Assembly: GCF_023206215.1 (NCBI RefSeq)
Contig: NZ_CP065800.1
Span: 930,001 to 994,000, forward strand
Direction of reading: 5' to 3'
Source of the DNA: Butyrivibrio fibrisolvens
GTDB lineage: Bacteria; Bacillota; Clostridia; Lachnospirales; Lachnospiraceae
Length of the DNA: 64,000 nucleotides
Under the pieces are notes generated by a model that had not been told where the DNA came from, searched no databases, and saw only the letters and a program-made list of their open reading frames with translations. Position numbers and translations under genes: made by a program. Shown in pieces: positions 21,338 through 35,430 of this stretch; the stretch's first letter is position 1, and every line of letters begins with the position of its first letter.

Positions 21338-23062
21338 CTATCTTCCTTTACTGTTTTTTTGAATTGTTTTCATTTGACTTTTGGTGATGAACTCAAAGTC
21401 TGTTCTGAAACCGCAGGCTTCATGGAGATTATCGGTTAGTTTTGTTCTCTGATATGTTGGTATATAGCCTTGTTCTTTGATTCCTGCAAAGTTCATTTCT
21501 TTTAGTGTGCTGAGTATATCATTACAAGTGTATCTGCTATCAATGCGTTTTTCTAAATATCTATAGATGATTAGAGCAAGAAAACAAGTAAGAAAGTGTG
21601 CTTTAATCCTAACATCATTCTGAAGAAATACAGGTCTTGCTTCAAAATCTGTTTTCATAATCCTGAAACATTCCTCTATCTCCCAGCGACCTTCACTGAC
21701 TTTCAATATATCGCTTACAGGATCATCTAGAAGATCTGTTGAAACAGCATACATGCCATCGTAAAGAGATTCCTGTTCAATCTTGTCTGTATCAAGGTAA
21801 TTATGTATGTTTGCAGCTTCTCCGCTATCGGTTACAGCAATCTTGCCGATAAAACGTGCCGGATCGTTGGGATTTTTCCTGTTCCGTTTTGTTGAACCAG
21901 AATCGATAAGTTTCTGCGCACGTTCCACCTGTGACTCACGGATTGCTTTCTGATACTTGGCAAACTTTGGAGAATAGGTGACTATAAGACGTTGATGGAG
22001 TTTCTTGGGAGTGTAGGGTTCTTCTTTGTAGTATAAATCAGTATCATCATCAGATAGTTTTGATATATCTACAAGAGTATCGTCTGATAATCTTTTGAAG
22101 CCTTCGCCATCTAATGCCCATTTTTTATCTTCAGCGTTAAGCTTCTTGATGGACTGAGTCACGATAAATGCCCGTTCACCCATGTGGTTGTAGTTCCTTA
22201 TCTTCTCTGAACCAAGCCCTGCATCACTACAATATATGAATTTTTGGCATCCGAATTCAGACAGTACTTTTTCTTCAAGAGGCTTAAGCGAAGTCTGCTC
22301 ATTGGCATTGCCTGGAAACAACGAAAAAGCTAAAGGAATACCGTCACCGTCCATAAACATACCCATTTGTATGATTGGATTTGGGCGGTGTTCTTTACTC
22401 TTGCCATATTTCTTATCGCCGTCTTCCTGCTCAATCTCAAAGTAGTAATTAGTGCAATCGTAGAAGAGGATTTTGTCATTTCTTTTGCCAATAAGATGGC
22501 TGTTTTTATAAACCTCGGATTGAATGAATTCACATTCATTTCCAAGAACATCCAATGCGCGGTATATATCATGAAGTTTATATGTTGGCTTTTCTAAGAA
22601 TTCAGAAGCTACTTTAAATGAAGATCTTTTACTTGATGGTTCAAGAATTCTTGCGAAAATCATGTCCGAAAGAATAGCATTGATATCGTACTTGAACTTA
22701 TATTTATCTCTAAGTTTTCTGCAGGTTTTATCTAATGCCAGGGAATAGTAAATGTATTGAAGGAATAGGTATCCTCCGCGGTGAAGTACTTGCTGATTAT
22801 AATCGAGCTGTCTGTTGGCATGGAATGTTATCTGGACAGACTTCGATTGCTGGTCTTCTTTATATTTCAGTGTTTCGAGTCTTGCTTCCTCTTTAGCCCA
22901 TGCCATAACATCATCTCTTGTTGGCCCGTGTTCTTTTATTAGTTCCTGTAAGGTTCCAAGTTTTCTGATAATCGTAGAAGTGTTGATACCTTTATCATTG
23001 ATATACCCTTTAGAAATGTAGAATGATTCGGCGTTTTTGGATTTAGATGTTATCACTCTCAT
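21338..23062 (-). CDS. IS1634-family DDE transposase
   Basis: A 574-aa transposase. Visible features: N-terminal MRVITSKSKNAESFYISKGY, the first catalytic Asp region FYDCTNYYFEIEQEDG, the second near FIYCSDAGLGSEKIR, and the Glu in the C-terminal block SEGRWEIEECFRIMKTDFEARPV, the YREK-like signature of IS4-type enzymes. ATG 23062 is preferred to the upstream frame start because GGAGG stands 9 bases before it. The gene is intact, so the element may still be active. Confidence 0.92.
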   Translation of the reverse strand: MRVITSKSKNAESFYISKGYINDKGINTSTIIRKLGTLQELIKEHGPTRDDVMAWAKEEARLETLKYKEDQQSKSVQITFHANRQLDYNQQVLHRGGYLFLQYIYYSLALDKTCRKLRDKYKFKYDINAILSDMIFARILEPSSKRSSFKVASEFLEKPTYKLHDIYRALDVLGNECEFIQSEVYKNSHLIGKRNDKILFYDCTNYYFEIEQEDGDKKYGKSKEHRPNPIIQMGMFMDGDGIPLAFSLFPGNANEQTSLKPLEEKVLSEFGCQKFIYCSDAGLGSEKIRNYNHMGERAFIVTQSIKKLNAEDKKWALDGEGFKRLSDDTLVDISKLSDDDTDLYYKEEPYTPKKLHQRLIVTYSPKFAKYQKAIRESQVERAQKLIDSGSTKRNRKNPNDPARFIGKIAVTDSGEAANIHNYLDTDKIEQESLYDGMYAVSTDLLDDPVSDILKVSEGRWEIEECFRIMKTDFEARPVFLQNDVRIKAHFLTCFLALIIYRYLEKRIDSRYTCNDILSTLKEMNFAGIKEQGYIPTYQRTKLTDNLHEACGFRTDFEFITKSQMKTIQKNSKGR

Positions 23063-23198
23063 ATGCAAAACCTCCACACCTTATTATAACACACATTGCG
23101 ATACATTGCGATAGTATAACACCATAAAATTGACATAAAAAATACAGACCTTAAGCGGTCTGTAAGGTATTATTATTTTATTGAACTGTCAAACTACC

Positions 23199-23452: not shown

Positions 23453-25051
23453 ATGAGCGATTTTTTTAACAACGACGACAACAAAGATAATGCTACTAAT
23501 GAAACTACTAATACAGAAACAACCGCAAATACAAATAGTAGCGACAATAATGATAACAAGAGCGCTATGGATTTTCGTGAGATAGATGAGAATGGTAAAT
23601 CTACTGTAGATGATAAGGATCTATCTGGTTCTGATAAGAAGGATAGTGATTATGAGGATATCTGCTTCATATGCAGACGTCCTGAGTCCAAGGCCGGTCG
23701 TATGTACAAGCTTCCAAACCATATATGTGTGTGTGAAGACTGTATGCATCGTACCATGGATACTGTAAGTCAGTATGATTACAACAATCTTCTCAATAAC
23801 CCTGAACTCATGAATCAGCTTAACAAGAACAGCGGTATTACATTCATGAATCTTGGAGACTTTGGCTCTAACCTTCAGGGCGGAATACCTAATTCACAGA
23901 AGATCAAGAAATCCAAGAAAAAAGAGGAAGAGGAGACTATTGATATCAAGAAGATCCCTGCTCCTCACAAGATCAAGGCACAGCTCGATGAATATGTAAT
24001 AGGTCAGGATCAGGCCAAGAAGGTTATCTCTGTTGCGGTTTATAACCACTATAAGAGAGTTGCTACAGGCACTATGGACGATATTGAGATTGATAAGTCC
24101 AATATCCTTATGATAGGACCTACAGGAAGTGGTAAGACATATCTTGTTAAGACGCTTGCCCGTCTTCTTGATGTACCGCTTGCTATAGCAGATGCTACAT
24201 CACTTACAGAAGCAGGTTATATCGGTGATGATATCGAAAGTGTAATATCCAAGCTCCTTGCGGCAGCAGGCAATGATGTCAAGAAAGCTGAGCGCGGTAT
24301 CGTCTTCATCGATGAGATAGATAAGATCGCCAAGAAGAAGTCCACAACAGCAAGAGATGTAAGCGGCGAATCCGTACAGCAGGGAATGCTCAAGCTCCTT
24401 GAAGGATCTGAAGTTGAAGTTCCTGTAGGTGCTAATTCCAAGAATGCTATGGTACCTCTTACTACAGTTAATACCAAGAATATCCTCTTTATCTGTGGTG
24501 GTGCCTTCCCGGATCTTACAGATATAATCAAGAACAGGCTCAATAAATCTTCATCAATAGGTTTTAACTCTGAACTTAAGGATAAGTATGATGACGATGA
24601 GAACATCCTTTCATACGTAACTACAGAAGATTTAAAGAAGTTCGGAATGATCCCTGAGTTCCTTGGACGACTTCCTATAGTATGCACACTTTCAGGTCTT
24701 ACCAAGGAAGCACTTATCAAAATCCTCAAAGAGCCCAAGAATGCTATCCTCAAGCAGTATCAGAAGCTCCTTGAGCTTGATGAAGTAGATCTTAGATTTG
24801 ACGACGGAGCGCTTGAAGCTATTGCAGAGAAGGCTCTTGAAAAGGATACAGGAGCCCGTGCCCTTAGATCTATCATAGAAGAGTTTATGCTTGATATCAT
24901 GTACGAGATACCAAAGGATGACAATATAGGCAGAGTTACTCTTACAAGAGAGTATATTGAAGGCACAGGCGGACCTCAGATCGAGATCAGAAGCGAAAAG
25001 CCCAAGATTAATGCTGCGGTGGAAGCTGCTATAGAAGATAAAAAAGAATAG
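23453..25051 (+). CDS. clpX: ClpX-type AAA+ unfoldase with N-terminal extension
   Basis: A 532-aa ATPase that unfolds substrates for ClpP. Residues 1-66 are an Asn/Thr/Asp-rich extension absent from ordinary ClpX (about 420 aa). The zinc-binding domain uses C71, C74, C94 and C97. Walker A GPTGSGKT is at 222-229, Walker B VFIDEIDKI follows, and the SSSIGF segment is the IGF loop that docks on ClpP, so partnership with ClpP is expected. GAAAGG precedes the ATG. It could be a second ClpX paralogue. It lies just outside the insertion sequence and before the RiPP locus. Confidence 0.9.
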   Translation: MSDFFNNDDNKDNATNETTNTETTANTNSSDNNDNKSAMDFREIDENGKSTVDDKDLSGSDKKDSDYEDICFICRRPESKAGRMYKLPNHICVCEDCMHRTMDTVSQYDYNNLLNNPELMNQLNKNSGITFMNLGDFGSNLQGGIPNSQKIKKSKKKEEEETIDIKKIPAPHKIKAQLDEYVIGQDQAKKVISVAVYNHYKRVATGTMDDIEIDKSNILMIGPTGSGKTYLVKTLARLLDVPLAIADATSLTEAGYIGDDIESVISKLLAAAGNDVKKAERGIVFIDEIDKIAKKKSTTARDVSGESVQQGMLKLLEGSEVEVPVGANSKNAMVPLTTVNTKNILFICGGAFPDLTDIIKNRLNKSSSIGFNSELKDKYDDDENILSYVTTEDLKKFGMIPEFLGRLPIVCTLSGLTKEALIKILKEPKNAILKQYQKLLELDEVDLRFDDGALEAIAEKALEKDTGARALRSIIEEFMLDIMYEIPKDDNIGRVTLTREYIEGTGGPQIEIRSEKPKINAAVEAAIEDKKE

Positions 25052-25166: not shown

Positions 25167-27025
25167 ATGGACAAAAATAAAAAAGCTTATGGCAATCTTT
25201 TAAAATCTATAAGGAAATACAAAGGTATATCAGAAGAGCTACTTGCGCATGGTATGTTTGACAAGAGTATGATATACAGAATTGAGTCTGGTCAAAGGCG
25301 AATAGGCTTCTTTTCAAGAAGACGTTTAATGAGCAGACTTGGAATTTCTTTGTCATTATTTACCGAGTATCTTCAGTATGATGAATATGAAGCATATTCT
25401 AAGCAAAGAGAAATAATATATGCTTTTGAGAATGAAGATACACAAAATATAGAGTCTGTTCTGGCTGAATACGAAAAAACAGCCAAGAAAGATAAAGTTG
25501 GTTTGCAATTTGCACTATTTATAAGAGCAGTTTTGGAATCATCTTCTGATCTCGAAATGTCTTATGAGTATATTAGTAAGTGCATAAAAATAACAATGCC
25601 GAATATTAAATATAGTGAATTATCTGAGTATGTACTATCCGGCGAAGAGGTAAAATATCTGTCATATTATTTGAAAATAAAATCTACTATCGAAAAAGAT
25701 ACTATAGACGATGATATATGCGGAAATCTTACTATTAATGGATGCTTTGAAAAACTGCTTGACTACATAATAGAACAGAAGTGGGATACTGTACCACAGA
25801 TGCAAGTGTTTCCTGCCGTACTGGTAGATTATTGGAACTACTTGGTGAATTGTAGAAATGATTTTTTAATAAAAAATGGAAACGCGAATCAAACTTTTTA
25901 AAATATCTGAACTATGCATTATATACATTAAAGGAAAGTGATCTATTATTTTATTTGCCTTCGCTTCTTACGATGGGGAAGACTCTATCGCGGGGAATAA
26001 AACAAAGTGAATATGAGAAATATGATAATGTATTTAGAAAAGTGTTTGAATTAAGCGGAAATGACTATAATAAAAAAAATCCATGGTCTGTGTTTTATGG
26101 TGGAAGCATATATTTGCTTGGAGATGTTTTAAAAAGACGGAGGATCCTGTTTGGGATGACTCAAAAAGAGTTTTGTGAAGGGATTTGTGATATAAGGACA
26201 TATTCAAGACTTGAGACTGGCAAGGCAAAAACACATGATCGTGAAACTATAATGCTGCTAAAAAAGGCTAGATTGCCAGAGCAATATTTTTATGCACAGA
26301 TAGTATCAGACGATTATTCTCTAATAAAGGATTCTCTACTAATAAATAAACTAATAAATGAATCAAAATATAATGAAGCTAATAATATGCTGTTATTGTT
26401 GGAGAACAAAATAGATATGAGCATTCCAATAAATAGTCAATTTATCGGCAATAAGATAGCATTGGCGAGTATTGGACTAAAAGAAATTGATAAGAATTGT
26501 TATGGAAATCTGGCAAGAAAATATCTGCATCTTACTATAGATAAAAGTATTGGTGACTTATGTATATCAAAAATGTATTTTACATCAGTAGAATATAATC
26601 TTATATATAATTTGGTGCGGTATGGTGAATTGCAGAAGAAGATATTTGATGGTATTCTTACATATTTTACTGATGTTAGCTATCTTGAAAAGAGACATAG
26701 AGATAGGCATTTAGATTATATTGTATGGTATTTTGCAAGCTATTTAGGTGATCATGATGACAAACAAAAGTCAACTGAGATTAGCAAAATATTGTTAAAA
26801 AACACCTTCTTAAAGATGAATAGAGAAGAGGTTATTAAAAATATTTATAATATTTTGTGGAATAAATATGATGGCAATTTTGCGGGTAGTACAGAAGCAG
26901 AGAATATCCTTTCTGTACTTCTTAATGTAAGTGAATTTTATAAAGCCGAAAGAGATATGAAATTCTTTAATCAAAGGTTGAAAGAAGTGATAGTTGAACC
27001 TGAATCGTCAGAATCATCAGAATAA
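25167..27025 (+). pseudogene. Two-HTH RRNPP-like regulator, broken by a one-base frameshift near 25862-25867
   Basis: Two consecutive frames make one protein of about 619 aa when a single T is restored in the T run at 25862-25867: the first frame runs ...CRNDF and the second continues FNKKWKRESNFLKYLNYAL. Residues 5-65 form an XRE-type helix-turn-helix (SMIYRIESGQRRIG), followed by helical repeat-like sequence; a second XRE-like HTH (LKRRRILFGMTQKEFCEG, then TYSRLETGKAK) lies near the middle, followed by another helical repeat region to the C-terminus. Rgg/PlcR-type peptide-responsive regulators have one HTH plus TPR-like repeats; the double arrangement here is unusual. ATG 25167 is preferred to TTG/ATG codons upstream. 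It stands before the RiPP operon, which it probably controls. Break may be real or a sequencing error. Confidence 0.7.
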
Positions 27026-27144
27026 TCGCAGGAAAGTTCAAAATAATCATTGTCTATTTGTGATGGTAAGTGAATAGATATAAGTTTTGATCCAATTAAA
27101 AAAATAATGACCGTTACAAGAATAAGAAGTGTTTTTTTGAACAT
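26971..27144 (-). CDS. Putative exported signalling peptide, convergent with the regulator
   Basis: A 57-codon frame on the minus strand, overlapping the last 55 bases of the regulator. The product begins MFKKTLLILVTVIIFLIG, a basic start and hydrophobic core like a signal or anchor segment, then a polar, Asp/Ser-rich stretch with one Cys (FELSCDYSDDSDD) and ends GSTITSFNL. GAGGAG lies about 10 bases before the ATG, and a good promoter reads into it: TTGTGA (27204-27199), 17-base spacer, TACAAT (27181-27176). Pheromone genes of Rgg/SHP and TprA/PhrA systems also lie against their regulator gene, which suggests this is the cognate peptide. No homologue is recognised; function is inference. Confidence 0.6.
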   Translation of the reverse strand: MFKKTLLILVTVIIFLIGSKLISIHLPSQIDNDYFELSCDYSDDSDDSGSTITSFNL

Positions 27145-27175
27145 TTGATATTTACTCCTCTGTATTTTGATATAT

Positions 27176-27204
27176 ATTGTAATGATAGTAATGGTTATTC
27201 ACAA
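27176..27204 (-). promoter_or_regulatory. Promoter of the putative peptide gene
   Basis: Minus-strand TTGTGA and TACAAT are separated by exactly 17 bases, placing the transcription start near 27168, about 24 bases before the ATG. The -35 box touches the base of the long inverted repeat at 27202-27245. Confidence 0.55.
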
Positions 27205-27245
27205 TAGACAGAACTGGCAACTTTTGTTGCCAGTTCTGTCTATTG
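27202..27245. promoter_or_regulatory. Perfect 20-bp inverted repeat with T tail in the RiPP control region
   Basis: CAATAGACAGAACTGGCAAC and its exact complement are separated by TTTT; TTTTAT follows on the plus strand. As RNA it is a strong terminator for plus-strand transcripts leaving the regulator gene. As DNA it lies between the minus-strand peptide promoter and the RiPP precursor, where an operator is expected. It could serve as both. The rest of 27026-27333 holds the peptide gene and AT-rich leader. Confidence 0.8.
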
Positions 27246-27333
27246 TTTTATATATATTAGTATGGGTTAATGTAAGTAGTTACTTGTTTAGCAGGTGCAC
27301 ATGCTAGATGAAAATAAAGAATAGGAGGATGCT

Positions 27334-27438
27334 ATGCAAATATTAGAAATGGGTTTTACAGACGAAGAGATATTATCTCAAGTTGGTGCAATTGCAGATA
27401 ATAATGGTACTTGTGGCAATAATGGAATTTGCGGATAA
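27334..27438 (+). CDS. RiPP precursor peptide with two NNGxCG repeats
   Basis: A 34-aa peptide, too short for ordinary gene calling. AGGAGG (27323-27328) stands 5 bases before the ATG. The leader (1-22) begins MQILEMGFTDEEILSQVG and is acidic and helical; the core is two tandem six-residue units, NNGTCG and NNGICG. Each contains N-x-x-C (N24..C27 and N30..C33). In streptococcal radical-SAM RiPPs of the NxxC class, the maturase joins the Cys sulfur to the Asn beta carbon. By analogy the product may carry two small thioether rings. A maturase and exporter follow in the same direction. Modification is inference. Confidence 0.8.
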   Translation: MQILEMGFTDEEILSQVGAIADNNGTCGNNGICG

Positions 27439-27444
27439 GAAAGT

Positions 27445-27475
27445 GACAGGGCAAGGTATTGCCCTGTCTTATTGC
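27445..27475 (+). terminator. Hairpin between precursor and maturase genes
   Basis: GACAGGGCAA and TTGCCCTGTC pair perfectly over a 4-base loop and are followed by TTATTGCTTT. The weak T tail suggests partial termination, giving more precursor than maturase transcript, a common arrangement in RiPP operons. Confidence 0.7.
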
Positions 27476-27494
27476 TTTATAATGGGAGGAAATA

Positions 27495-28742
27495 ATGCGG
27501 TATTTTATACCTGGATATATAGATATATGGGATGAAAAAAATAATACTATTCTAGAGTCCAAAATTAACAAGAATAAAGTGATAATTGAAGACGAGATAT
27601 ATAAAAAAGAACTTAATGAAGTTATAGAAAATGGATGTAATGATATTGATACTAGGCTGAGAAAATTCTTAAATGCTCAAAATATGCTGGTTACAGAGCA
27701 ATATGCTCGTAATAAGCTTGATAGATTAAAATCTTTATTAGATAAGGTGTGTATTGTAACAATTTGTCCTACTGAAGCTTGTAATTTTAATTGTAAATAT
27801 TGTTATGAGAATCATAAAAAAGGCAAGATGCAACAAGGTACATTAGATAATATACTAGAATATCTGATAGAAGAGTCATATAAGTATCATAAGGTTCATG
27901 TGAATTGGTTTGGCGGAGAACCGACTCTTTGTAAAGATATGGTAGTTCGTTCATCTATGAAGCTTAAGACAAATATTAAGAATTACTCGTCAGCAATGAC
28001 TACTAATGGTTTTTTACTTACTCCAAAGACATTTGTTGATTATTATAATGTTGGTATTACAAACTTTCAAATCACTATTGATGGTAAAATGCACGACCAA
28101 TTTAGAATCTTAAAAAACGGAAAGGGAACACTTGAAACTATTGAAAAGAACATAACGGGAATTAAGAGTCTTCCTAATGATCGATTCAGATATCGCATTA
28201 TGATTAGGCACAATATAATGGCTGATGATATAGACTACGGGTGGTATGATCATTTAAAAGAATTGATACAGGAAGATAATCGTTTTACAGTTTTGATTAA
28301 AGCTATATCCGACTATGGTGGAAACAGAATTAAGAAAATGAATCTCCATACTTATAAAGAGAGAACTGACACTATTAACAGGCATGTTGAATATGCTAAT
28401 AAAATAGGTCTTAAATGTGCTAATTTGACTAAGGAGTGTTTTTCTAATATATGTTATGCAAGCTATTCTAACAGCATGGTATTTAGAATGGATGGCAGAA
28501 TAGAAAAATGTACAGTATGCCTTGGGGCAAAACAAAATTATATAGGAGTAGTTGAGGGAAACGAAGTAGTAATAGATGAATATAATAATAATCAGAAGTG
28601 GACACAAGCTCCTTTGCTTGATGAATGCTTGAGGTGTAAAAATGTTGCTTCGTGTCTTAATCTTCGTTGTAGAAAACAAAACGTATTAGAAGGAATAGAA
28701 AGACAAACTTGTTCTGATTATAATTATAGGAGTTTAGTGTGA
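27495..28742 (+). CDS. Radical SAM/SPASM peptide maturase
   Basis: A 415-aa enzyme. Residues 1-85 resemble the peptide-binding (RRE-like) N-terminus of RiPP maturases, though I cannot confirm the fold. The SAM-cluster motif is C96-x3-C100-x2-C103 (CNFNCKYC); the GGEP motif lies at 140-143. The C-terminal SPASM region has C320, C339, C342, C378, C381, C387, C392 and C406, enough for two auxiliary Fe-S clusters. GGGAGG stands 6 bases before the ATG. It follows the NxxC precursor by 56 bases and precedes the exporter by 4, so it most likely installs thioether links in that peptide. AT-rich with many AGA/ATA codons, unlike the backbone genes. Confidence 0.88.
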   Translation: MRYFIPGYIDIWDEKNNTILESKINKNKVIIEDEIYKKELNEVIENGCNDIDTRLRKFLNAQNMLVTEQYARNKLDRLKSLLDKVCIVTICPTEACNFNCKYCYENHKKGKMQQGTLDNILEYLIEESYKYHKVHVNWFGGEPTLCKDMVVRSSMKLKTNIKNYSSAMTTNGFLLTPKTFVDYYNVGITNFQITIDGKMHDQFRILKNGKGTLETIEKNITGIKSLPNDRFRYRIMIRHNIMADDIDYGWYDHLKELIQEDNRFTVLIKAISDYGGNRIKKMNLHTYKERTDTINRHVEYANKIGLKCANLTKECFSNICYASYSNSMVFRMDGRIEKCTVCLGAKQNYIGVVEGNEVVIDEYNNNQKWTQAPLLDECLRCKNVASCLNLRCRKQNVLEGIERQTCSDYNYRSLV

Positions 28743-28746
28743 CATT

Positions 28747-30338
28747 ATGAGAAAATATTTAATACGGCATTGGAAGATAAATCTTTTATCAGCATTTTTA
28801 GTTATTATATGTGCGGGCTTTAGTGTAGGAATAAATCTTATTATGGTTGAAGCGATATATCAAATAATAGAGTTTGACCTGACGGGATTTGCCAAATGGA
28901 TGACAATTGATTTGATAGGGTGGGGACTATATGTTTTTGCGGATTGTATTAGAGCATTTTTTCAAAACAAGTCCATCTGTGCTATGAATAATGATTATAG
29001 GATGGATCTTGTTGAGAAATTAAGTAGAAAGAGTTATCAGCTCTATCATGAAAAAGATAGTGGAGAGTATATTTCCTGGTTTACTAACGATGTATCTCAA
29101 ATACAAAGACTGGCATGGGAACCATTTTTTAGTTCCATAAGCTCTGTAGCCAGTATTGTGTTTAGTATCATTGCTCTTTTTACATTTCATTGGTCATTAC
29201 TGATAATATCACTGGCTGCAGCTATAATAATAATGACTGCACCAAAATTGTTTACTAAAAATATGGAGAAGTATGGTAAGGATAATACAATTGTCTTAGA
29301 ACAAAGCACTGATTATATAAAGGATAATTTACTTGGATTCGATGTACTTAGATTTTTTGATAGAATAGAGCTTTTTAAGAATGCTTTTCAAAAAATAAGC
29401 AAAAAAATAGAAAAATCAAACTTTAATTTGAATTACAAAAATGAACTGAGCGGAAACGGGATTGCTTTAGTAAGTATTATATGCCAGATGTTAGTAAATT
29501 TTTATATAGGTTATCTTTCTATAAAAGGTATAATTATACAATCAGCAATCATGGGAGGAGGTAATATTTGCGGAGCAATATATAACAATCTGGGGAATCT
29601 TGGTAAATATAAATTGAGTTTTGCATCTGCTTCCGCCATATTTGAAAAAGCTTTACAAGAAGATGATGATGAAAAAGGGAAAGAAGAGAAAATTGCTGAA
29701 TTGAAGAAAAGCATATCTCTAGAGAATGTCTCATTTAAATATGGTGATGGACCGTTAGTCCTAGATGATATGAATATCAATTTTGAGATAGGCAAAAAGT
29801 ATGCTCTTATCGGCAAATCCGGAAGAGGAAAGACTACTTTATTAAAACTAATCTTAGGATTCTTGAGAGATTATGATGGAAAGATATTTTTTGATCAAAA
29901 GATATAGGAAAATGTAATTCTGAAGAAATTCAGAAACATTTAAGTTACATAGAACAGAATGTATATCTCTTTAATACTACCATTCGAAATAATATAACTC
30001 TATTTGAAGAGTTCCCGGAAGAGGAAATAGATGAAGCTATAAGAATAAGTGCCTTGACTAAAGATATTAGTTCTTTTGAGAATGGATTGGATACAGAAGT
30101 GGGAGAGGCAGGCTGTAATCTGTCGGGAGGCCAGCGTCAAAGAGTTGCAATTGCAAGGGCATTACTTCATAAGCGAAATGTTTTGCTGGTAGACGAAGGA
30201 ACAAGTGCGCTAGATAAGGAAAATGCAGATATTATCGAGAAGAATCTTTTGGCAGAGAAAGAACTGACACTGATTATAGTGAGCCACCATCTATCTGATG
30301 AAAGAAAAAAACAGTTTGACTTAGTATATGAGATATAA
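28747..30338 (+). pseudogene. Peptide ABC exporter, broken by a one-base frameshift near 29897-29900
   Basis: Two frames form one half-transporter of about 530 aa when one A is restored in the A run at 29897-29900: the first ends GKIFFDQ-KI and the second continues K-DIGKCNSEEIQKHLSYIEQ. The membrane domain (1-300) has about six hydrophobic segments; the ATPase has Walker A GKSGRGKTT in the first part and signature NLSGGQRQR plus Walker B VLLVDEGTSALD in the second. There is no N-terminal C39 peptidase, so leader removal needs another protease. The gene starts 4 bases after the maturase stop. As read it would make a truncated, inactive transporter. Confidence 0.82.
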
Positions 30339-30350
30339 GCGTAACTATAA

Positions 30351-30428
30351 CAAATTCAAAGTTCCCCCTTGGGAAATGCATTGATGTGGCCTTAGCAGAC
30401 ACGGCATCTCCCAAGGGGGAATTTGAGT
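30351..30428 (+). terminator. Long inverted repeat after the RiPP exporter gene
   Basis: TTCCCCCTTGGGA (30362-30374) and TCCCAAGGGGGAA (30409-30421) pair perfectly, extended by CAAA/TTTG with one bulge. It is 13 bases after the exporter stop and probably ends the RiPP transcript, although no T run follows. Confidence 0.55.
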
Positions 30429-30519: not shown

Positions 30520-30689
30520 TGAGGTTAAAATGAAGAAATGCAGATAATTGCAAAGTTTGGAAGAGTGGAGGCTTAAAGTTAACCAGCTATTCGGAAAAAT
30601 TATCAGAAAATTTGTAGGCTTTATTGAAAATATTCTGCTTTTATGATAGTATTATTTTGACTAAATAGATTAAAAAGGAAGGCATGACG

Positions 30690-35340: not shown

Positions 35341-35430
35341 CTTGCCACGAGCAAAGCAAGTGGCTAATGGTTCAAATTGGTGGAGCTAAAGGCACCAATT
35401 TGGTTTTGAAAGTGGAACACTTCCAAACTT
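35341..35430 (-). repeat. Dispersed triple-hairpin repeat, copy B
   Basis: Read on the minus strand it follows copy A (30432-30519) almost base for base: AAGTTTGGAAGTGTTCCACT, then CAAATTGGTG and ATTTGAACCATTAGC, then TTGCTTTGCTCG. The left part overlaps no gene. Confidence 0.7.

Follow-up and report, generated by a model that had tools for sequence, protein, structure and literature searches.

The receptor PlcR, of the RRNPPA family, binds a peptide derived from an adjacent propeptide. RRNPPA receptors are described as built on a core of five tetratricopeptide repeats (TPRs), with an optional N-terminal helix-turn-helix (HTH) and optionally four more TPRs (PMC12700828), or as carrying 5 to 9 TPRs (PMC9765709). 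In streptococci, the genes for group III small hydrophobic peptides (SHPs) are described as convergent to and overlapping rgg (PMC13361665), and Asn20, Cys23, and a C-beta thioether are described for the ranthipeptide pair NxxcA/NxxcB (PMC8326336). A published list of RRNPP-linked gene clusters names no Lachnospiraceae (PMC10075063); in the open-access literature, we found no paper joining Lachnospiraceae to quorum sensing and RRNPP, or to PlcR-like systems, and none on tandem-HTH pheromone receptors. Here we describe a locus of Butyrivibrio fibrisolvens (Lachnospiraceae) at positions 25167 to 30338 of a 64,000-nucleotide stretch (contig NZ_CP065800.1, positions 930,001 to 994,000; hereafter, the window), for which an original prediction made from the letters alone had proposed a quorum-sensing-controlled cluster for a ribosomally synthesized and post-translationally modified peptide (RiPP). 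We consider it probable that the locus holds a pheromone cassette of RRNPPA type that occurs in Lachnospiraceae and relatives and stands here before an NxxC-type RiPP; this genomic island would be a self-regulated RiPP cluster.

The island occupies an AT-rich block between clpX (23453 to 25051) and a small open reading frame (ORF) at 30684. Its GC content is 31%, compared with 34 to 46% in 1-kb windows well outside the block, and the GC values counted by hand in the original prediction (25% at 27541 to 27600; 45% at 24121 to 24180) were exact on recount. Two HTH-containing frames are followed by a convergent 57-amino-acid (aa) hydrophobic ORF, a 34-aa precursor ORF, a radical S-adenosylmethionine (SAM) gene, and an ATP-binding cassette (ABC) exporter:

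25167 to 25901, plus strand: tandem regulator, first half, HTH and TPR-like helices, frame 1 (HTH_3, 16.8 bits; cut-off 23).
25862 to 27025, plus strand: tandem regulator, second half, HTH and TPR-like helices, other frame (HTH_3, 20.4 bits; cut-off 23).
26971 to 27144, minus strand: 57-aa secreted-type peptide, candidate pheromone propeptide, convergent to and overlapping the regulator 3' end (hydropathy maximum, 3.63; Shine-Dalgarno [SD]-like GAGG).
27201 to 27246, no strand: perfect palindrome, each arm 21 bp long with 4 nt in between, located between the propeptide and the RiPP operon; a candidate operator that could instead be a terminator.
27334 to 27438, plus strand: 34-aa candidate RiPP precursor; in its core, DNNGTCGNNGICG, each Cys has an Asn at -3.
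27445 to 27468, listed on both strands: hairpin with a 10-bp stem between precursor and maturase, possibly a partial terminator.
27495 to 28742, plus strand: 415-aa radical SAM peptide maturase with a SPASM-like pattern of Cys residues, frame intact (PF04055, E 1.5e-17).
28747 to 29907, plus strand: ABC exporter, membrane domain and start of the ATPase, first frame (PF00664, E 3.5e-23; PF00005, E 1.2e-9).
29895 to 30338, plus strand: ABC exporter, rest of the ATPase, second frame (PF00005, E 2.8e-10 for 30054 to 30338).

The two HTH units of the predicted regulator are present, but they are split by one frame break rather than carried in one open frame. Both score below the Pfam cut-off for HTH_3; despite this, an N-terminal HTH of the RRNPPA receptor kind is indicated by the match of the second half to PlcR, its best PDB sequence match (E 3e-5), and by the homolog P0121, whose predicted fold shows an HTH and a TPR solenoid with PlcR as best fold match. 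PDB titles among the fold matches name PlcR with PapR. The structure model of the window regulator half had a mean confidence (pLDDT) of 53.8. No Rgg-type C-terminal domain family was among the Pfam matches of either half (E <= 0.1). By the description in PMC12700828, an RRNPPA receptor has at most one HTH per chain; this regulator carries two HTH units. An intact 623-aa relative, P0126 (an entry of 30 member sequences with one contig listed), is 98% identical to the window regulator, the first half being 99% identical to its N-terminal half. In a profile search with the tandem regulator, 10 of 140 genomes of relatives matched at E <= 1e-12; in the same-genus genomes G024, G036, G046, G048, and G078, both halves scored strongly and are encoded as two adjacent ORFs. 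Nine of 358 family genomes were matched at E <= 1e-20, with at most three candidates scored per genome, and three copies were counted in G381. The first half of the window regulator aligns to residues 3 to 173 of a G381 regulator (24% identity, E 1.4e-6). We call G381 Catonella-like because its maturase is 99.7% identical to P0058, a protein with the source name Catonella sp.

The convergent small hydrophobic peptide gene was found as predicted. Convergent secreted-type ORFs were defined by an ATG start, a length of 30 to 65 aa, an SD-like site, hydropathy, and a basic start. Such an ORF lies beside 15 of 25 regulators, compared with none of the 191 other genes in the 27 loci that were scanned (Fisher P = 7e-17, a value too small given near-copies), and beside none of the 50 control genes with a downstream gap of at least 150. 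For each of 24 locus entries, only the last regulator ORF entered this count, which comes to 25 because L077 contributes two; ten ORFs encoding the first half of a pair were left out. With near-copies merged (L157/L158/L203, L204/L205, and L159/L210), roughly 11 of roughly 21 independent cases are positive. We had already inspected 18 of the 24 entries when the criteria were fixed; among the six that had not (L206 to L210 and L159), three were positive. The adjacent small secreted-type propeptide of RRNPPA systems is thus present by hydropathy and start criteria. Judged from sequence comparison, the propeptide is under coding constraint in same-genus loci; its start, frame, and ACIL/CCIL stretch are kept through substitutions and whole-codon length changes. 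Outside the 25-locus test, on a human fecal contig (L160, MT837704.1), a single-HTH regulator is likewise paired with a convergent ORF of secreted type. The same-genus L210 and L159 propeptides have in common a C-terminal PAPSSDD(F/Y) stretch, a candidate mature pheromone.

The palindrome at 27201 to 27246 and the hairpin at 27445 to 27468 were absent from the original prediction. Folding of 27150 to 27340 as RNA gave a z score of -6.9. A dyad lies at about -114 to -49 upstream of 10 of the 12 peptide starts shown, and L225 and L232 have one further upstream; outer arms are, for example, CATGGCGTAT...ATACGCCATG (L223), AAGGGCGTAT...ATACGCCCTT (L157), and ATGTCGTATGG...CCATACGACAT (L159). Dyad scores of at least 13 were reached by 8 of 15 cassettes versus 5 of 131 control upstream regions (Fisher P = 1.6e-6), scores of at least 8 by 10 of 15 versus 24 of 131, and scores of at least 5 by 15 of 15 versus 82 of 131; the motif CGTWT...AWACG occurred in 10 of 15 versus 7 of 131 (Fisher P = 5e-8). 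These figures come from a test designed after the dyads had been sighted, are inflated by near-copies, and use mechanical ORF starts as controls. The window dyad is perfect, but its core differs from CGTWT...AWACG. At L224:6828-7080, a G381 regulator is followed by two ABC-type genes (by reading) and a CGTAT-type dyad was seen by eye; no propeptide was found there, and a 10-aa leaderless ORF may follow an SD-like site.

No single product goes with the cassette: its neighbors include radical SAM clusters, nonribosomal peptide synthetase (NRPS) genes, 4'-phosphopantetheinyl transferase (PPTase), and EAL proteins. The pairing of regulator and peptide occurs beside radical SAM genes in G381 (L077 and L223), in the same-genus genome G076 (L210), and on the human fecal contig L160. 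A maturase and an ABC exporter lie past the dyad in L077; L223 encodes a PqqD-like protein, a radical SAM/SPASM protein, and an ABC exporter; and L210 encodes two radical SAM/SPASM proteins and a major facilitator superfamily (MFS) protein. Elsewhere, the neighbors are an AccA/carboxyl-transferase protein and an NRPS protein, with thioesterase-like and polyketide synthase (PKS)-like genes by reading (L205), an AccA/carboxyl-transferase protein (L204), a PPTase (L157), and ABC exporter pieces (L159). An EAL-domain gene lies downstream of the cassette in two family genomes (L225:7602-8462 and L232:4302-5174).

Several of these loci showed further peculiarities. The exporter adjoining the L159 cassette (L159:4460-7882) is seemingly split by an inserted ORF, by reading maybe a transposase. 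In G381, 4.8 kb downstream of the first regulator, an 890-aa frame (L077:13967-16639) encodes a tandem-HTH regulator and a radical SAM enzyme in one chain, as either a deletion fusion or a true fusion. At L223:5294-10871, a tandem regulator interrupted by a stop is accompanied by a convergent 36-aa peptide and by PqqD-like, radical SAM/SPASM, and ABC genes. L160 is recorded as "Bacteriophage sp." from human feces and resembles bacterial RiPP cluster DNA; besides two radical SAM genes, it carries a regulator, a gene of MFS-like type, and a secreted-type ORF in convergent orientation.

From the gene content, homology, arrangement, dyads, and recurrence of the cassette, we propose the following model, in which the signaling steps are modeled on PlcR/PapR and Rgg/SHP. 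The 57-aa convergent peptide would leave the cell and be trimmed, and the resulting short C-terminal pheromone would be reimported, whereupon the TPR domains of the tandem regulator would bind it. The regulator's two HTH heads may bind the palindrome, the tandem regulator being in effect a covalent version of the PlcR dimer, ready-made for a dyad. The bound regulator would then switch on expression in both directions, leftward for the propeptide gene and rightward for the operon of precursor, maturase, and exporter. The maturase would cross-link both precursor Cys residues, most likely to the Asn at -3, and the finished product would leave the cell through the ABC exporter. We give about even chances to a broader proposal, that Lachnospiraceae have their own pheromone system with a PlcR-type receptor duplicated head to tail (a covalent or translationally coupled dimer), a convergent propeptide, a dyad operator that is often CGTAT...ATACG, and exchangeable targets (radical SAM RiPPs, NRPS/PKS, and others), of which the window would be the NxxC-type RiPP version.

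The predicted 34-aa frame with two repeats is open; it ends in NNGTCGNNGICG, and its core contains NGTC and NGIC. In the maturase, CxxxCxxC and six further Cys residues are invariant among 27 aligned sequences, the window's included. Its assignment as a radical SAM/SPASM enzyme holds by the PF04055 match and the SPASM-like Cys pattern, but the Pfam SPASM model itself was unmatched. A database search returned 122 proteins at E <= 1e-20, the window's own copy included; because of these matches and because the regulator-peptide arrangement recurs, we regard the observation as beyond chance. By profile comparison, the closest relative of solved structure is 5wgg (E 6e-22), the SCIFF maturase CteB. 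Among 151 sequences placed in a tree, the window maturase pairs with P0058 (support, 0.97) inside a 74-protein clade (0.96). Next outward lie G143 (0.94) and then G653 and G554 (0.78; 0.95 in a tree remade with L160), followed by the enzymes of L080, L082, and L083 on viral-database contigs (0.89; 0.78 in the remade tree). ORFs with N-x-x-C motifs lie beside these enzymes: MELKIRNNNSDSSVVNFCNVQC in G143, MEIKKSVVIPVIPLSNNCQCTNECPSG in G554, and MKIKKSRMVSMRLGNGNCHGVCDGNGNCPC in G653, where the maturase and then an ABC gene follow and a single-HTH TPR-type regulator stands in front. L082 has a 93-aa ORF with NAGC, NGSC, NSGC, NGGC, and NAGC, L083 has two NxxC-rich ORFs, and L080 has an 85-aa ORF with NVYC. 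Asn stands at -3 of Cys in 2/2 cases in the window, 3/4 in G653, 1/2 in G143, 1/3 in G554, 2/5 and 4/6 in the two ORFs of L083 (a and b), 5/5 in L082, and 1/3 in L080. These counts are not blind, because we chose the ORFs by eye among small Cys-containing ones close to the maturase, in part after filtering for NxxC.

Several observations weigh against our interpretation. The regulator is broken within 25862 to 25901, its halves lying in different frames, and the exporter is broken within 29895 to 29907, so that the predicted exporter domains are present but in two frames rather than one. In G381, the precursor region and the maturase N terminus appear deleted, and the closest relative is therefore uninformative on the precursor. 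The enzyme of L160 (39% identical to the window maturase over residues 85 to 347, in an ORF of 294 aa only) falls inside the maturase clade, yet L160 has no small ORF with two NxxC motifs; the ORF preceding its other radical SAM gene ends in SCDDDNGHRLY. The check in the original prediction, whether the precursor is kept beside the maturase in relatives, is thus answered only in half: N-x-x-C ORFs lie next to sister-clade enzymes, whereas L160, the sole member of the clade whose full cluster could be read, gives an unfavorable result. Its position in the tree therefore lowered our confidence in a self-regulated NxxC-type cluster slightly.

The linkage itself could differ from an Asn-Cys beta-thioether, being a sactipeptide alpha-thioether or a different ranthipeptide bond, and we put this alternative only just short of an even chance. 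The best five NCBIfam models for the maturase (TIGR04463, Clo7bot, geopeptide, PapB, and SCIFF) are those of other Cys-peptide maturases, and all scored far below cut-off (TIGR04463, 131 of 525 bits; TIGR04334, 106 of 600; NF047865, 90 of 340). Asn also stands at -4 of both window Cys residues, and L160 points the same way, whereas the recurrence of Asn at -3 beside sister maturases speaks for N-x-x-C. The Asn-Cys linkage is for us a tentative assignment, a shade less probable than its alternatives.

The frame breaks bear on two further explanations, each of which we hold to be a serious minority possibility. In the first, the locus is a decaying, horizontally acquired remnant whose regulator and exporter are true pseudogenes and from which nothing is made. 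Two breaks fall inside one 5.2-kb island of low GC, and two other overlapping same-strand pairs examined in the window do not look like breaks (in one, the N- and C-terminal parts of a transketolase fall in distinct Pfam domains; in the other, the ORF after a sigma factor has no Pfam match). Another damaged copy exists in G381. Maturase matches at E <= 1e-20 were found in 9 of 145 relatives' genomes: the window's own, two partial same-genus matches (G063 and G070), and six in other families, among which G143 matches best (36% identity over residues 3 to 409). Against decay, the maturase, precursor, and propeptide frames are intact, the regulator has its intact 98%-identical counterpart in P0126, and each break falls in A/T-rich sequence, which is prone to sequencing errors. 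These last two points favor the second explanation, assembly or sequencing errors in a fully intact locus, against which stands the quality of the 4.45-Mb assembly (two contigs, 99.94% complete). Because the regulator and exporter are frame-broken, the cluster may be disabled or silent in this strain.

Whereas clpX was present in all 26 genomes searched, the window's own among them, island genes had no match at E <= 1e-15 in the larger clpX regions of four relatives, L181, L182 (just 3.3 kb long), L183, and L184. In L183 and L184, the post-island block of the window (30684, 31107, 31735, and 32531) begins 2.2 to 2.7 kb past clpX in reversed orientation; this block had no match in L181 or L182. 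The comparison and the patchy maturase matches therefore fit, at the sequence level, an island gained or lost within the genus. Just upstream of clpX is a 579-aa ORF, transposase-like by reading (21338 to 23077, minus strand). After the island, an inverted repeat lies at 30359 to 30424, where the sequence of a small ORF is similar to one near 35367 and may belong to a dispersed repeat element.

That the cassette is regulatory without quorum sensing, the small ORF being another secreted or membrane peptide and the palindrome a terminator, is unlikely: a T-rich tail follows the palindrome of the window, which has a terminator-like score, and the peptides of the 15 cassettes vary widely in length (36 to 63 aa) and C terminus, but the dyads lie upstream of the peptide starts rather than between convergent gene ends, several share a core motif, and the receptor resembles PlcR.

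If the pheromone cassette is real, synthetic C-terminal peptides together with the predicted operator would offer a handle on silent biosynthetic clusters of Lachnospiraceae, and the RRNPPA family would gain a receptor with two DNA-binding heads. Among known systems, PlcR/PapR is the best sequence and fold match, sharing the HTH, a TPR solenoid as seen for the homolog P0121, and the adjacent secreted-type propeptide; the present system differs in its two HTH-TPR units, in one chain or two adjacent ORFs, and in its convergent propeptide. With the streptococcal Rgg/SHP radical SAM RiPPs (streptide and NxxC), it shares a peptide-sensing regulator, a small hydrophobic peptide, a precursor, a radical SAM enzyme, and an exporter, but its receptor is doubled and has no detected Rgg domain, and the propeptides of the 15 cassettes measure 36 to 63 aa. 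The suggestion in the original prediction of a related system outside streptococci with another regulator architecture accordingly stands for an RRNPPA-type, non-Rgg regulator and convergent propeptide beside a radical SAM operon, but the support does not extend to membership in the streptococcal NxxC class. The TIGR04463, Clo7bot, PapB, and SCIFF maturases are likewise radical SAM enzymes of Cys-containing peptides, and the window enzyme falls below their NCBIfam cut-offs. The likeness to streptococcal NxxcA/NxxcB is one of precursor motif: an N-x-x-C core is common to both, and the window precursor has two such motifs in tandem.
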